Positions 1 through 45,712 of a DNA stretch of 64,000 bases are shown here, one piece after another; within the stretch, counting starts at the first letter, position 1, and every line of letters begins with the position of its first letter. Position numbers and translations under genes: made by a program. The stretch is taken from NCBI GenBank assembly GCA_030692565.1, contig JAUYAO010000026.1:1-64000 (forward strand). The letters are read 5' to 3'. The notes beneath the pieces were generated by a model. That model was not told the origin of the DNA, did not search any database, and was given only the letters and a program-made list of their open reading frames with translations. Origin of the DNA: Nitrospira sp. Its GTDB lineage: Bacteria; Nitrospirota; Nitrospiria; Nitrospirales; Nitrospiraceae.

Positions 1-13
1 GGGGGGGGGGGGG
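1..13. repeat. Poly-G tract of 13 at the window edge
   Basis: The window opens with thirteen consecutive G, then a GC-rich stretch up to the flagellin stop codon at 47-49. On the flagellin strand this is a poly-C run about 35 bases past the stop. It could be a genuine homopolymer, a contig-end artefact, or the edge of a phase-variable tract in a neighbouring gene outside the window. No convincing intrinsic terminator is visible between the tract and the flagellin stop. Confidence 0.6.
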
Positions 14-46: not shown

Positions 47-874
47 CTACCTCTGCAGCAAGGCCAAAGCCTGTTGCGGGAGGTTGTTGGCCTGCGCCAG
101 GACCGAGATACCGGTTTGGACCAGGATCTGGTTCTTGGTAAACAGCGCCGTTTCCGAGGCAATATCGGCGTCTCGGATACGTGATTCTGCGGCGGTGAGG
201 TTTTCGCTCGTCACCTGCAGGTTCGCAATCGTCGCTTCGAAGCGGTTCTGGATCGAACCGTATTCGGCGCGGGCGGTTGCGATGGCGCTGATCGCGCTAT
301 CGATGTTGGCCAGTGCGCTCGTGGCATTGGCTGAGGTGGATACGTTCACGGAGCTGATGCCCAGTGAATTCGTGGTAATGTCGTTGAGATCGAGGCTGAG
401 TGAGTTGCCTGCTCCGCTTCTGAAGCCGATCGCGATGGAGAAGCTAATCGTGCTGCCGCTGGTCAAGGCCTGGCCGTTGAATTCGGTGACCTGTGCGATA
501 CGATCGATTTCCGACCGCAACGCCACGAATTCCTGATCGATGTACGACCGTTCCGTGTTGCCGACCGTGCCGCTGGCTGACTGAGAGGACAATTCCCGGA
601 GCCGCGACAGGAGGTTTCCGATCGTCGCCGCCGCGCCGTCGGCGATCTGCGTCAAGCTGATACCATCCGAGGAATTCCGGACGGATTGATTGATGCTGCG
701 GATCTGCGCCCGCAAGGATTCGGACAATCCGAGACCGGCGGCATCGTCCGCGGCCCGCGTAATCCGAAGGCCGGATGAGAGGCGCTCGACCGAGCGTCCC
801 AATTGGTTGGTGCTGATCGATAAATTCCGCTGAGCGGAAATCGATGCCGGGTTGTTGTTAATGATTAATGCCAT
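47..874 (-). CDS. fliC: Flagellin (filament subunit)
   Basis: 275 residues. The N-terminal D0/D1 flagellin block (about 1-140, with the SSGLRI and ADDAAG signatures) and the C-terminal D1/D0 block (about 190-275, ending in the hydrophobic NLPQQALALLQR) are both complete. The central region (about 140-190) is short and rich in Ser, Thr and Asn, so it is the natural place for O-glycans. ATG at 872-874 has an AAGGAGGA ribosome site 7 bases upstream. The gene stands alone behind its own sigma-28 promoter and lies next to a large glycosylation island transcribed in the same direction. Only one flagellin is present here, and no fliD or fliS is found in the window. Family assignment is certain; glycosylation is inferred from context. 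Confidence 0.98.
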   Translation of the reverse strand: MALIINNNPASISAQRNLSISTNQLGRSVERLSSGLRITRAADDAAGLGLSESLRAQIRSINQSVRNSSDGISLTQIADGAAATIGNLLSRLRELSSQSASGTVGNTERSYIDQEFVALRSEIDRIAQVTEFNGQALTSGSTISFSIAIGFRSGAGNSLSLDLNDITTNSLGISSVNVSTSANATSALANIDSAISAIATARAEYGSIQNRFEATIANLQVTSENLTAAESRIRDADIASETALFTKNQILVQTGISVLAQANNLPQQALALLQR

Positions 875-968
875 GGATGCTTCCTCCTTGCCGACTGCTG
901 TACTGTCCTTGCCTCGCTTCCGCGTCCGTGCAGAAGCGTCTTATCCCTCTACGCCTAGAGAGCGGTTG
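875..968 (-). promoter_or_regulatory. Flagellin mRNA leader with candidate CsrA sites
   Basis: The roughly 94-base leader predicted downstream of the sigma-28 promoter contains several GGA triplets. One lies in the 12-base loop of a perfect 6-bp hairpin (CGCTTC/GAAGCG, arms at 915-920 and 933-938). Two more sit in the AAGGAGGA Shine-Dalgarno sequence. CsrA classically binds GGA in a hairpin loop plus a GGA in the ribosome site and blocks translation, and csrA-fliW is encoded in this same window. The motifs are seen directly; regulation by CsrA is inference. Confidence 0.5.
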
Positions 969-974
969 CATCCC

Positions 975-1001
975 TTATCGGAGGATACCCTCAAGACTTG
1001 A
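975..1001 (-). promoter_or_regulatory. Sigma-28 promoter of flagellin
   Basis: Read on the minus strand, a TCAA -35 core is followed by a 15-base spacer and a TCCGATAA -10 box. This closely matches the sigma-28 consensus TAAA-N15-GCCGATAA. It lies about 100 bases upstream of the flagellin ATG, after the stop of the 172-residue gene, so flagellin is probably a separate transcript. FliA, the sigma factor, is encoded at 44963-45712. Confidence 0.82.
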
Positions 1002-1071
1002 GAGGCCCGAAGGAACAAGGGTCAACCACACGGGTCGGCAGAAACCGAACGTAATGAACACGTCGGTCATT

Positions 1072-1590
1072 CTACGACTCCAACCTGGGCGCGAGTTCAT
1101 ACTCCAGGAGATCGGCCACACGAATGAGGTCTCGTTGGGCGCGCGCATCGAGTAAGGCCTGCACCCAGGGAGTCATCGCACGCTCGGGAGGAGTCTTCGC
1201 TGGCTTCGACTCCATCAGCTCGAGATAGTCGGCCAATTTTCCGAGCCAGGCGTCCAACGACATAAGGCGTTCGTCTCCCATGCGGATCTGCGAGGCAAGC
1301 TCATGGGCTTCGTGGCGAAGGAGATCGGCGTACTGGCGAATTGTCGAGGTGGCACCGCGCACCACCTCCTCCATGGTTTGAGAAACAGCTTGAAGGCGCG
1401 TAAACCGCGCGATCGGCTCGCCGAGAAAGGTCGAGTCCAAGTCGCGATCGGTAATGGTGCGCTGATCCACGGTCAGGGATGTGATCAGGCGAGAGCGGGC
1501 ATGCGCTTTCTCGCTGATATCGGCCAGCACGTCGCCAAGGCTGAGTTCATTGACGACTTCCCACTGATCTTGATCGAGCATGACATGCAT
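1072..1590 (-). CDS. Hypothetical helical protein at the end of the glycan island
   Basis: 172 residues, not recognised as a known family. It is predicted to be mostly alpha-helical and charged, with no signal peptide or membrane segment. An AAGGAG ribosome site lies 8 bases before the ATG at 1588-1590. It begins 50 bases after the stop of the GT9 gene at 1640 and is the last gene before flagellin. Its size, helical character and position would suit a flagellin-binding chaperone or a glycosylation accessory factor, but no motif supports either. Confidence 0.75.
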   Translation of the reverse strand: MHVMLDQDQWEVVNELSLGDVLADISEKAHARSRLITSLTVDQRTITDRDLDSTFLGEPIARFTRLQAVSQTMEEVVRGATSTIRQYADLLRHEAHELASQIRMGDERLMSLDAWLGKLADYLELMESKPAKTPPERAMTPWVQALLDARAQRDLIRVADLLEYELAPRLES

Positions 1591-33046: not shown

Positions 33047-33532
33047 TCAGACGGAACAGACAGCCGATGCGACCGGCTTGGGGGCGAGGGTGTCAGCCGC
33101 GGGCTTGTGCGCGAACAGCGGAAAGCGTGTGGGATAGTCGTCGGAGAGGATCAGTTGCTTGCAGAGCTTGGTGCGAGGATTCATGAGAAGCGGTCCCCGC
33201 AGATTGGCCGTGATGCCTGTCGGGTCGTTGGACGGAATGGTAAGCAGCACGGACAGGATCAACTCGTCGTCATCCTTGCCGTCCACTTCAACGAGGGCTT
33301 CATGGGGCGCCTGGACGTTATATTCAGGGTGGAACGTGGCCGGATCGAGAATCACAAAGGCCAATCCCGGTTCATCGAGTGACTGCAGCCATTTGAACGG
33401 CGCATCCGTATCGTGATCGAGAATCACGTAGCGGCGGCAGTCTGGAAATCCAAGAATCCCGTTCGGAAATGTCAGGACCGCGTCGGGTCGAACGTCACAG
33501 TTGCCGAAACGGGTCGAACGACATTGCATCAT
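33047..33532 (-). CDS. fliW: Flagellar assembly factor FliW
   Basis: 161 residues. FPNGILGFPDCRRYVIL, LQSLDEPGLAFVILDP and LTIPSNDPTGITANLRGPLLMN are the conserved FliW blocks. FliW sequesters CsrA allosterically until it is titrated by free flagellin, thereby coupling flagellin translation to secretion. It starts 6 bases after csrA, the usual partner order. Two consecutive ATG codons open the frame. Confidence 0.96.
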   Translation of the reverse strand: MMQCRSTRFGNCDVRPDAVLTFPNGILGFPDCRRYVILDHDTDAPFKWLQSLDEPGLAFVILDPATFHPEYNVQAPHEALVEVDGKDDDELILSVLLTIPSNDPTGITANLRGPLLMNPRTKLCKQLILSDDYPTRFPLFAHKPAADTLAPKPVASAVCSV

Positions 33533-33538
33533 GCATCC

Positions 33539-33784
33539 TTATGGCGCGCTCCGCCGCTTCGGCGGTGCGAGGTGGCGAAAGGCGTCGAGCGGAATGACTT
33601 GTGTTTTCGAGGCCAAGTGATTCTCGTCCTGAATCCGCGCATAGACTTCATCGCGATGTACCTCAATGGTGTGCGGAGCCTCGATCCCCAGGCGCACCTG
33701 TCCGCCTTTCATCCCGAGGACAATGACCCGGATATCCGGACCGATGGTCACACCTTCGCCGCGTCGTCTTGTCAGGACCAGCAT
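33539..33784 (-). CDS. csrA: Carbon storage/translation regulator CsrA
   Basis: 81 residues. MLVLTRRRGEGVTIG and VRLGIEAPHTIEVHRDEVY are the RNA-binding dimer core. The C-terminal tail is about 20 residues longer than E. coli CsrA (61), as in FliW-containing bacteria, where this tail contacts FliW. Expected target: the flagellin leader at 875-968. It is preceded by a sigma-28-like promoter and lies just downstream of flgL. Confidence 0.96.
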   Translation of the reverse strand: MLVLTRRRGEGVTIGPDIRVIVLGMKGGQVRLGIEAPHTIEVHRDEVYARIQDENHLASKTQVIPLDAFRHLAPPKRRSAP

Positions 33785-33826
33785 GAACGCCTTCCGTGGC
33801 TGTTGAACCGATACCCCCTACGAGTC

Positions 33827-33853
33827 TATCGGTCTATCTGCTGAAACCTTGAG
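33827..33853 (-). promoter_or_regulatory. Sigma-28-like promoter of csrA-fliW
   Basis: On the minus strand TCAA, 15 bases, ACCGATAG, ending about 43 bases before the csrA ATG in the 83-base gap after flgL. It would add FliA-driven expression of the flagellin translation switch on top of read-through from flgM-flgL. Confidence 0.6.
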
Positions 33854-33867
33854 TCCCCTGTCCTGAT

Positions 33868-35634
33868 TTATTGCAGATACTTCAGGAGCGAATTGCCGAA
33901 CAGTTGATTCAGGGTACGACTGGCGGCTTCGATCGCGTATTGTTGCAAGGTAAGATCGGAAATCGCTTTGGCGAGATCCACATCCTCCGTTTCCGAGAGG
34001 GTTTGGGTAAAGAAGGACTTGAATTCATCCAGCCGGCCCGCGCTGCCGGTCAGCCGATTCGACAAGGCCCCGACTTCTCCCAGGACGGCGCCGGCCTGGC
34101 TGAGCCCTGTGCCGACATCCCCGATCGTGTCGCGGATGCCCCCGCGGTAGTTTGTTCTGAGCGAGGTGACGAGGGTCTTGATCGAGTCGAACAAGTCGAT
34201 ATTGGGACCGCTAAACACACGATCCCCGGACACGTTGGTGGGCACCACTTGATTATTGCCTACCTCTACCTGATGCACGCCGGCATCGCCTTGATATTGC
34301 AACCCCGTCACCACGGCAAACCGGTCGCCCGTGGCCGGAGCGCCGCTGCCGGTGGAGAGCTGCAGCCGGATTCCGTCGAAACTGATGTCGCTTCCCGTGC
34401 TGTAGGTTTGATTGGCCAACACGGTCCGTGGAGCGAGACTCACGGCATACGCGTCACCGCTTTGCGGTCCGCCGCGATCGCTATTGGAGAGGACCACCCG
34501 AAGACCGTCGAACTCAACGGCGTTGCCTGACACGTAGGTGTTGCCAGAGGACACTGTGGCGCTCGTCGTCGTGTTTACAATGTTGTATTGGGTACTGGAG
34601 GTGAACTGGATCGCATAGGAATTGAGCGTCAAATTGCCCGGTCCGATAATCCCTGCATCAGAGGCAAAGGCTCCCCCCGTATTGGCGCTGTTCCTGGTCA
34701 CATTCACCGGGACGGTCACATCCAAGACGTCATACTGGGTCGCCGATGAAAACCGGATCACGTAGTCGTCCAAGGTGACGAGATTGTCATCTACGACGGT
34801 CCCTTGGCTGACCACCGCGCCACCGGTATTGGTCGATCCAGGGCTGGTCGTGGCCGTGAGTGCAAAAGGCTTATCTCCGGTTGTCCGGCTCCCCCCCACC
34901 AGCCCTAACGCAGCGCGAGAGGTGCCTCCGGTCACCGTCACGGTGGAGTCCGATCCATGCGTGTCGGACGCAATGACGAGATGATCTGTCTCAAACGTCA
35001 CCGTCACGTGTTTCCCCGCTGCGGTCAGTGCGGCATCGGCATTGATCTGCGTTTGGACCCGCGCGGCGAGTTGAGCGCCGGTCAAGCTACCCGTGGCCGA
35101 TGTCAGATCGATGGTGCCGGAGGTGACGCCGTCGACAGAGACGACGAGGGTATCATTGATGCCGTTGGTCAACGTCACAGGGGCGGTGATGGCTAACCCC
35201 GTCGTCCTTCCGTGGGTACTGGTCCCGGTGAAGACCGCCTGCCCGTTCAACTCCGCATTGGCATATTGCTGCACCAGCGAGTAGAGCTGACGCACTTCCT
35301 GGGAGCCGATGACGCGTTCCGCCGGACCGTTCGTATCGCTGCCGAACTGGACGGCGAGCTCTTGGACACGGCTGAGGGTGTCTGTCGTACTGCTCAGGAG
35401 TTTGTCGCTCAGATCGAGGCGTGTCCTGCCGAAGGAAATATTCCGTAGCCGTTGCTCAATCGACGCGACCGAAGCCTTATCGAGGCTGATACGGTTGAAG
35501 GCACTGGGGTCGTCGGAAGGCTGGCGCACTTTCTTTCCCGTCGATAGCTGCTGTTGCAGCTCCAAAGACCGCGCGCGGGAACGTTGCAGGTTCTTGACTA
35601 GCACGCCGAATGTTTGTTGCTCAGTCACACGCAT
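33868..35634 (-). CDS. flgL: Hook-filament junction protein FlgL, enlarged
   Basis: 588 residues against about 300-320 in enterics. The flagellin-like N-terminus (LQQQLSTGKKVRQPSDDP) and C-terminus (SRTLNQLFGNSLLKYLQ) are intact. The extra mass is a central beta-rich region: one Flagellin_IN-like segment (about 165-250, VQTQINADAAL, VTVTGGTSRAALGLVGG) and repeated YxIxFTSxTQY-type units near 290, 345 and 385. Related units occur in FlgK. It joins FlgK to the filament. It begins 15 bases after flgK. Confidence 0.96.
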   Translation of the reverse strand: MRVTEQQTFGVLVKNLQRSRARSLELQQQLSTGKKVRQPSDDPSAFNRISLDKASVASIEQRLRNISFGRTRLDLSDKLLSSTTDTLSRVQELAVQFGSDTNGPAERVIGSQEVRQLYSLVQQYANAELNGQAVFTGTSTHGRTTGLAITAPVTLTNGINDTLVVSVDGVTSGTIDLTSATGSLTGAQLAARVQTQINADAALTAAGKHVTVTFETDHLVIASDTHGSDSTVTVTGGTSRAALGLVGGSRTTGDKPFALTATTSPGSTNTGGAVVSQGTVVDDNLVTLDDYVIRFSSATQYDVLDVTVPVNVTRNSANTGGAFASDAGIIGPGNLTLNSYAIQFTSSTQYNIVNTTTSATVSSGNTYVSGNAVEFDGLRVVLSNSDRGGPQSGDAYAVSLAPRTVLANQTYSTGSDISFDGIRLQLSTGSGAPATGDRFAVVTGLQYQGDAGVHQVEVGNNQVVPTNVSGDRVFSGPNIDLFDSIKTLVTSLRTNYRGGIRDTIGDVGTGLSQAGAVLGEVGALSNRLTGSAGRLDEFKSFFTQTLSETEDVDLAKAISDLTLQQYAIEAASRTLNQLFGNSLLKYLQ

Positions 35635-44962: not shown

Positions 44963-45712
44963 CTACCCGTCGGCATGAAGAAAGGCTTTCAGCCGGAGGA
45001 TGGCCTTGGTGTGAATCTGGCACACACGGGACTCCGTGACTTTCAACAGCTCGCCGATTTCCTTCATCGTCAGTTCTTCATAATAGTAGAGGGTCAGGAC
45101 CAGCCGCTCTTTTTCAGGCAATCCTTGAATGGCATCGCCGATCGCTTCGCGCTCTCGCTCGTTCACTAACGTGGACAAGGGATCCGGGTGATGCGTATCG
45201 GCGAGCATCTTGACGACTTTGTGCCCATCCGGCTCTTGAAGTCCCAGGTCGTCGATACTGATCATCACGGCCCCTCGGGCCCGCGAGATAAAGTCGTCGA
45301 GTTCCTCCAGCGGCATCTTGAGTTCGGACGCCACTTCTTCATCCAACGGAGGGCGTCCCAGTCGATTCAATAACGTGATATGGGTCTTTTGCAGGAGGCC
45401 GATACGTTCGTGCACGGATCGTGGAATCCAATCCATCGAGCGAATCTCGTCCAACATGGCGCCGCGAATCCGGAACTCCGCATAGGTCTTGAATTTCGCT
45501 TCTCGATTGGGGTCGTATTTCTCCATCGCATCCATCAGGCCGATGGTCCCGACGGAGATCAAATCCTCGGCATCCAGGTACGCGGGCAATCGAAAGGCCA
45601 GGCGATGGGCCATCGCCCGAATCACATGCGCAAATTCTTTGATCAGTTGCTCCCGATGAGCATCGCCGCTGGGAATCGCTTGATGAACACGATGAACTGC
45701 CGTTTTACTCAT
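44963..45712 (-). CDS. fliA: Flagellar sigma factor sigma-28 (FliA)
   Basis: 249 residues. Region 2 (YLDAEDLISVGTIGLMDAMEKYD start, AKFKTYAEFRIRGAMLDEIR), region 3 and region 4 (LPEKERLVLTLYYYEELTMKEIG start, TESRVCQIH) are complete. It should read the sigma-28 promoters at 975-1001, 38652-38679 and 33827-33853. It follows flhG by 22 bases in the flhA-flhF-flhG-fliA order common to polar flagellates. Confidence 0.98.
   Translation of the reverse strand: MSKTAVHRVHQAIPSGDAHREQLIKEFAHVIRAMAHRLAFRLPAYLDAEDLISVGTIGLMDAMEKYDPNREAKFKTYAEFRIRGAMLDEIRSMDWIPRSVHERIGLLQKTHITLLNRLGRPPLDEEVASELKMPLEELDDFISRARGAVMISIDDLGLQEPDGHKVVKMLADTHHPDPLSTLVNEREREAIGDAIQGLPEKERLVLTLYYYEELTMKEIGELLKVTESRVCQIHTKAILRLKAFLHADG

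Follow-up and report, generated by a model that had tools for sequence, protein, structure and literature searches.

Does the leader of the filament flagellin gene in Nitrospira carry a CsrA switch that is antagonised by FliW and restored by flagellin awaiting export? Nitrospira are hard to culture and their regulatory genetics are sparse, and the question is raised here by a single locus in a stretch of 64,000 nucleotides from a Nitrospira sp. (assembly GCA_030692565.1, contig JAUYAO010000026.1, positions 1 to 64,000), referred to throughout as the window. The initial annotation of this DNA had predicted FliW-flagellin-CsrA homeostasis from a hairpin in the flagellin leader, a GGA pair in the ribosome site and the presence of csrA-fliW. 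At the level of sequence this prediction is supported by the two sites, the compensatory conservation and genome-wide rank of the hairpin, the gene pair, the residues of CsrA and the co-occurrence of FliW, and we put the probability that hairpin and Shine-Dalgarno sequence (SD) together form such a switch at about 0.87.

The locus lies on the minus strand, where its parts, in the direction of transcription, are:

976..1001, minus strand: FliA (sigma-28)-type promoter of flagellin, TCAAGTCT-N11-TCCGATA
945..962, minus strand: 5' stem-loop of the leader (predicted fold), loop without GGA, sequence varying by clade
915..938, minus strand: BS1, upstream candidate CsrA site, a 9-bp hairpin with hexaloop ACGGAC at 929-924 and GGA at 927-925
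880..889, minus strand: BS2, downstream candidate CsrA site on the Shine-Dalgarno sequence, AAGGAGGAAG, GGA at 887 and 884
47..874, minus strand: filament flagellin gene, 275 aa, PF00669 E 1.4e-34

A search with Flagellin_N (PF00669) found only this one filament flagellin gene in the genome, the sole further match being a FlgL-like protein at 35215-35595. Its promoter was assigned from the FliA consensus, and a pattern of this type, drawn up after the leaders had been inspected, occurs upstream in 58 of 79 flagellin leaders compared with 9 of 3950 shuffles. Transcription would accordingly start near 968, giving a leader that runs from 968 to 875 with GGA at 946, 927, 921, 908, 887 and 884 (position of the 5' G). 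The stem-loop at 945-962 is a possible 5' stabiliser; a second stem-loop of this kind, mostly GGA-free and with a sequence particular to each clade, also stands close to the 5' end in leaders among L005-L084, and in those of the Nitrospira defluvii-type clade often includes GATGTGGCCACATC. Directly upstream of flagellin lies a 172-aa open frame (1072-1590, minus strand) with no Pfam match, and just past the flagellin gene the contig starts with a run of 13 G (window positions 1-13) that resembles an assembly end.

BS1 reads CGCTTCTGC-ACGGAC-GCGGAAGCG and forms nine pairs, one of them G-U. Folded on its own, the 109-nt leader has exactly this stem and loop in its minimum-energy structure, and the leader as a whole folds with a z-score of -2.10 (6 of 200 shuffles fold equally well). 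A hairpin of 6 bp presenting GGA in its loop had been described previously: the hairpin and its loop GGA are indeed present, but the stem is longer and the loop, at six bases, smaller than the 12 nt that six pairs would imply. The second GGA pair, also described at that time, is where it was placed, in the ribosome site (AAGGAGGAAG at 889-880), and the only structure predicted for it is a weak 3-bp hairpin whose loop contains the second of the two GGA. The proposed two-site geometry likewise stands, with 40 nt separating the GGA of BS1 from the first GGA of BS2 (887), a spacing that fits bridging as it falls within the 10-63 nt range of E. coli CsrA (PMC7652899, in excerpt). BS1 is, moreover, an ANGGAN hexaloop closed by a stem, the form given for high-affinity RsmE targets in the same excerpted source (PMC7652899). 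When the 94-nt leader was shuffled 20000 times with dinucleotides preserved, such a loop arose once with a perfect stem of 8 bp or more and 18 times with one of 6 bp or more; of the 549 ANGGAN sequences on both strands of the window, BS1 has the longest perfect stem (9, runner-up 7). A comparison of 4227 Rfam models with window positions 700-1200 yielded no match to the leader, and two weak plus-strand matches within the flagellin gene, both under their gathering scores.

Conservation was assessed in 79 leaders, comprising that of the window and those of 78 of 80 loci with a complete 5' side (L035 and L078, with 5' ends cut off, were left out). Where one leader held several candidate loops the most upstream was chosen, except in L065-L082, for which the loop 37 nt from the start was taken. 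Every one of the 79 leaders has an A-[A/C/T]-GGA-[A/C/T] hexaloop 34-62 nt before the start codon, whose stem has 6-11 pairs and no more than one bulge or mismatch, as well as GGAGGA no more than 25 nt from the start codon; the combination of hexaloop and stem was passed by only 22 of 7900 shuffled leaders. Stem sequences differ among clades, from CGCTTCTGC/GCGGAAGCG in the window to TCGTCGGC/GCTGGCGA in L050, CCTCAAGGG/CCCTTGAGG in L071 and CTTTAGAGT/ACTCTGAAG in L080. When identical segments were collapsed into a covariation set of 28 distinct hairpins (33 of the 79 leaders fall outside it), 91.7% of pair cells were paired, against 61.4% in shuffled and 39.7-54.2% in slid versions. Two-sided changes occupied 78 cells against 27.2 in shuffles, none of 500 shuffles reaching as high; they touch 8 of the 9 pairs, a count that itself lies within the shuffle range (93 of 500). 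The loop GGA is invariant across all 28.

This is the pattern of a stem selected through compensatory changes around an invariant loop GGA, and it is weaker in the clade with bulged hairpins. There, 91.2% of cells are paired among 19 distinct hairpins, with little variation: five of nine pairs never vary, and covariation is weak, with two-sided changes in 6 cells, a count that 15 of 500 shuffles equal or exceed. The corresponding alignment, A3, holds 19 of 21 distinct segments, L048 and L066 being left out. Predicted folds of the 79 leaders are not uniform in accessibility, the BS1 GGA having an unpaired probability below 0.7 in 12 and the SD being mostly open, at a mean above 0.6, in only 38. 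Ahead of the SD of a different flagellin, of 652 aa and 44% identical over the match, another genome keeps GCGAC-ACGGAT-GTTGC, with pairs judged by eye. Longer flagellins (open frames of 626-652 aa) replace the 275-aa one in several members of the family: G078:C20:110471-112387 (L125), G157, G200, G133 and G208.

A covariance model, R1, was built from the 28 distinct hairpins. Searched against the window's own genome it ranks the flagellin leader first (E 2e-5), a position flattered by the inclusion of the window's own hairpin in the model, and places second a match between two opposite-strand genes (E 2e-3). Apart from the leader, four matches in this genome have E below 0.05, three in same-strand open frames and the one between opposite-strand genes; these were taken as chance. 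Across 351 kb, all 47 matches at E 0.02 or better are flagellin leaders, the training loci being the same. A genus-wide scan gave matches in 17 of 79 genomes, at the flagellin leader in 8 of them and at other places in 9, and failed to pick up the flagellin leaders of near relatives; it scored 100 candidates in each genome, with a model that misses bulged hairpins, and is too insensitive for showing absence. One candidate second target, the leader (L131; R1 E 1.6) of a gene that from its start reads as 6-phosphogluconate dehydrogenase-like, was rejected on poor conservation: its loop ACGGAT and closing pairs are kept by only one of its six nearest relatives (L223 of L223-L228), L225 has the loop without a closing pair, the other four alter the loop, and more distant relatives are without it.

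The same window holds the genes for the proposed regulators:

44963..45712, minus strand: fliA (sigma-28), TIGR02479 FliA_WhiG 251 bits, above cut-off
33539..33784, minus strand: csrA, 81 aa, with R44, I51, N55 and an extended C-terminus, single copy
33047..33532, minus strand: fliW, 161 aa, single copy, directly after csrA

The csrA-fliW pair named by the initial annotation is thus present as adjacent genes, each found once in the genome, at the end of a minus-strand series of flgN, flgK, a FlgL-like gene, csrA and fliW. The FliW assignment rests on PF02623, above cut-off, and on a best model match to FliW that is under its equivalog cut-off. Together CsrA and FliW match chains D and A, respectively, of 5dmb, which contains both proteins. 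The window's CsrA, with its extended C-terminus, carries the RNA-contact residue R44 (PMC7652899, in excerpt) and both FliW-contact positions: in the excerpted text of PMC7829508, V51 and N55 of C. jejuni CsrA are FliW-binding by alanine scanning, position 51 is isoleucine in five of the species set side by side, and the asparagine matters in B. subtilis too. The four other aligned CsrA chains that reach position 55 have K there, in contrast to N55 in the window.

These parts also occur together across genomes. In a phylum sample of 148 genomes, FliW was found in all 75 that bear a flagellin (at E 1e-20 or better) and in 17 of the remaining 73. Of 79 genomes of the genus, 69 have a match to window-type flagellin, 68 one to FliW and 66 one to CsrA, and nine of the ten without this flagellin also lack FliW and CsrA. 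The exception, G017, has csrA and fliW, and only a FlgL-like Flagellin_N protein; neither the 100 kb around its fliW nor a whole-genome PF00669 search yielded a filament flagellin. This genome is 99% complete in 8 contigs, with the FlgL-like locus at G017:C2:483442-484111. Other departures within the genus are G020 and G022, which are without FliW and CsrA, have a weak and a split flagellin match, respectively, and are 54% and 67% complete, and G045 and G076, which are without CsrA only.

Beyond the genus, 60 flagellin leaders were taken from 46 flagellin-bearing genomes of the phylum sample, 8 in the window's family and 38 outside it, representing 14 families; some genomes supplied several leaders, and at least L144 and L200, by the length of their contigs, appear to repeat L043 and L056. 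Under a looser definition, set after inspecting the leaders (a loop of 5-7 that contains GGA, on a stem scoring 6 or more, at 25-110 nt ahead of the start), a GGA hairpin is present in 43 of the 60 against 5.9 expected from shuffles, and 17 fail. In 35 of the 43 the distance to the start codon is at most 62 nt, and in 8 it is greater. The definition fails to catch some likely instances, one being the mismatched hairpin of L144, which passes the test of the stricter set as L043. The element is absent from family f11 (2 of 2) and from several extra flagellins of f21 and f14. In some other Nitrospirota families, five-base GGA loops (AGGAT, CGGAT, AGGAA, TGGAC) replace the hexaloop in flagellin leaders: L157, L159-L161 and L172 in f14; L175, L176, L181, L182, L187 and L188 in f21; and L154, L194, L195 and L197 in f15.

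The switch that we favour would operate as follows. RNA polymerase with FliA would transcribe the flagellin message from near 968, and a CsrA dimer would set one face on the ACGGAC hexaloop of BS1 and the other on the ribosome-site GGAGGA of BS2, bridging the two and so blocking ribosome entry. For as long as the hook is unfinished, unexported flagellin would keep FliW bound; once export begins, FliW would be freed to bind the C-terminal helix of CsrA (at I51 and N55), and the block would be lifted. Bridging of this sort is described for glgC, and relief by FliW with its reversal by unexported flagellin for hag and flaA (PMC7652899, PMC4894983). The binding of CsrA, the block to translation, the release of FliW and the binding of flagellin to FliW are what we infer for Nitrospira, and the cell would probably in this way halt synthesis of its filament protein until the filament can be placed.

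Abundant messages often have protective hairpins, and BS1 might be one of these: a structural stabiliser or RNase barrier, with its GGA kept for some other reason and CsrA uninvolved. The second, mostly GGA-free stem-loop that precedes BS1 lends this some weight, suggesting that structured leaders are favoured here. A stabiliser, however, has no need for A-N-GGA-N to persist in the loop while the stem beneath it is rewritten, nor for that loop to sit about 25-42 nt before the SD GGA in clade after clade, and the presence of csrA-fliW largely tracks that of flagellin; we consider this explanation improbable. The idea that the hairpin arose by chance and was kept only through descent in close relatives could draw on the five invariant pairs of the bulged clade, but is disfavoured already by the compensatory changes in the 28 hairpins, and further by stems that differ by clade, by the rarity of the hairpin in shuffles, by its persistence ahead of a flagellin that differs greatly in length and by conservation that extends past the genus. 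We give it next to no credence.

A different alternative accepts the binding of CsrA and replaces its antagonist, such that something other than FliW, for example a sponge RNA, sets CsrA. In its favour, a FliW-CsrA test for Nitrospira was not found among the literature matches listed; yet fliW is the very next gene after csrA, the window's CsrA has I51 and the N55 that four other aligned chains replace with K, and no flagellin-bearing genome of the phylum sample is without FliW. Its probability is low, a shade below that of a hairpin serving stability alone, and the FliW-antagonised switch remains by far the preferred reading.

Upstream of csrA, two further features come into view:

33827..33852, minus strand: FliA-type promoter of csrA-fliW
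33789..33800, minus strand: candidate CsrA site in the csrA leader, GCC-ACGGAA-GGC across the ribosome site

A promoter of this type is seen in 53 of 66 csrA leaders compared with 7 of 3300 shuffles, which suggests that csrA-fliW expression is late and FliA-driven. In 43 of 66 csrA leaders of the genus the ribosome site lies in ANGGAA with at least three closing pairs, usually GCC/GGC, a test passed by 89 of 13200 shuffles; in reading these counts it should be borne in mind that the leaders are related, that the events are not independent and that a ribosome site itself favours GGA. The N of the motif takes all four bases (A 22, T 12, C 6, G 3). The other 23 leaders do not fit, 13 of them having no ANGGAN there, and one leader, L283, is cut to only 36 nt. 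The candidate site suggests that CsrA may regulate its own synthesis.

A broader proposition, that CsrA in Nitrospirota is a nearly dedicated governor of the flagellum rather than a global regulator, we regard as tentative and, on balance, doubtful. It would act mainly on two RNAs, the flagellin leader and the csrA-fliW message, both under FliA; CsrA would repress flagellin and itself, FliW from the same message would oppose it, and the leader hairpin would have outlived replacements of the flagellin gene, with five-base loops (AGGAY, CGGAY) in some families. Were this true, the dedicated circuit would be a compact, self-damped homeostat, and the five-base loops (AGGAY, CGGAY) would imply a changed recognition by CsrA.

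Zere et al. 2015 (PMC4682653, in excerpt) have already suggested, from the genes present, that FliW may control CsrA in Nitrospira; a paper on the Nitrospira flagellin leader itself was not among the matches listed for literature on FliW, CsrA and flagellin leaders, Nitrospira CsrA or Nitrospira motility. The leader would provide Nitrospira with a concrete, testable post-transcriptional switch for motility and would extend to another phylum a CsrA mechanism established in a few model bacteria. Supported by covariation and matching no Rfam family, this RNA element could also serve to mark CsrA-FliW control in uncultured genomes. It agrees, furthermore, with flagellum control as the old job of CsrA-FliW, as proposed in PMC4894983 (in excerpt).

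Comparison with known systems places the Nitrospira leader among several of these models. In E. coli glgC, as proposed here, an upstream high-affinity hairpin is bridged to a site on the SD (PMC7652899, in excerpt); the gene there is a different one, has four sites, and belongs to a bacterium with sponge RNAs rather than FliW. Closer is flaA of C. jejuni, likewise a sigma-28-dependent flagellin gene with two GGA sites, whose upstream site is an ANGGA stem-loop supported by compensatory changes, and among whose relatives some non-flagellated species are without csrA and fliW, as in Nitrospira (PMC4894983, in excerpt). The C. jejuni leader is 45 nt long with both sites in stem-loops, whereas that of Nitrospira is about 94 nt with BS2 in a weak predicted 3-bp hairpin, and fliW does not adjoin csrA in Epsilonproteobacteria as it does in Nitrospira. 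Adjacency of csrA and fliW is shared instead with B. subtilis (PMC4894983, in excerpt), where the leader of hag also has two CsrA sites, one of them on the ribosome site, and FliW is the protein antagonist of CsrA (PMC7652899, in excerpt), the sites being predicted and the antagonism proposed in Nitrospira. The Nitrospira system differs from that of B. subtilis in that some 32 kb separate its csrA-fliW pair from flagellin, the pair following flgN, flgK and a flgL-like gene.
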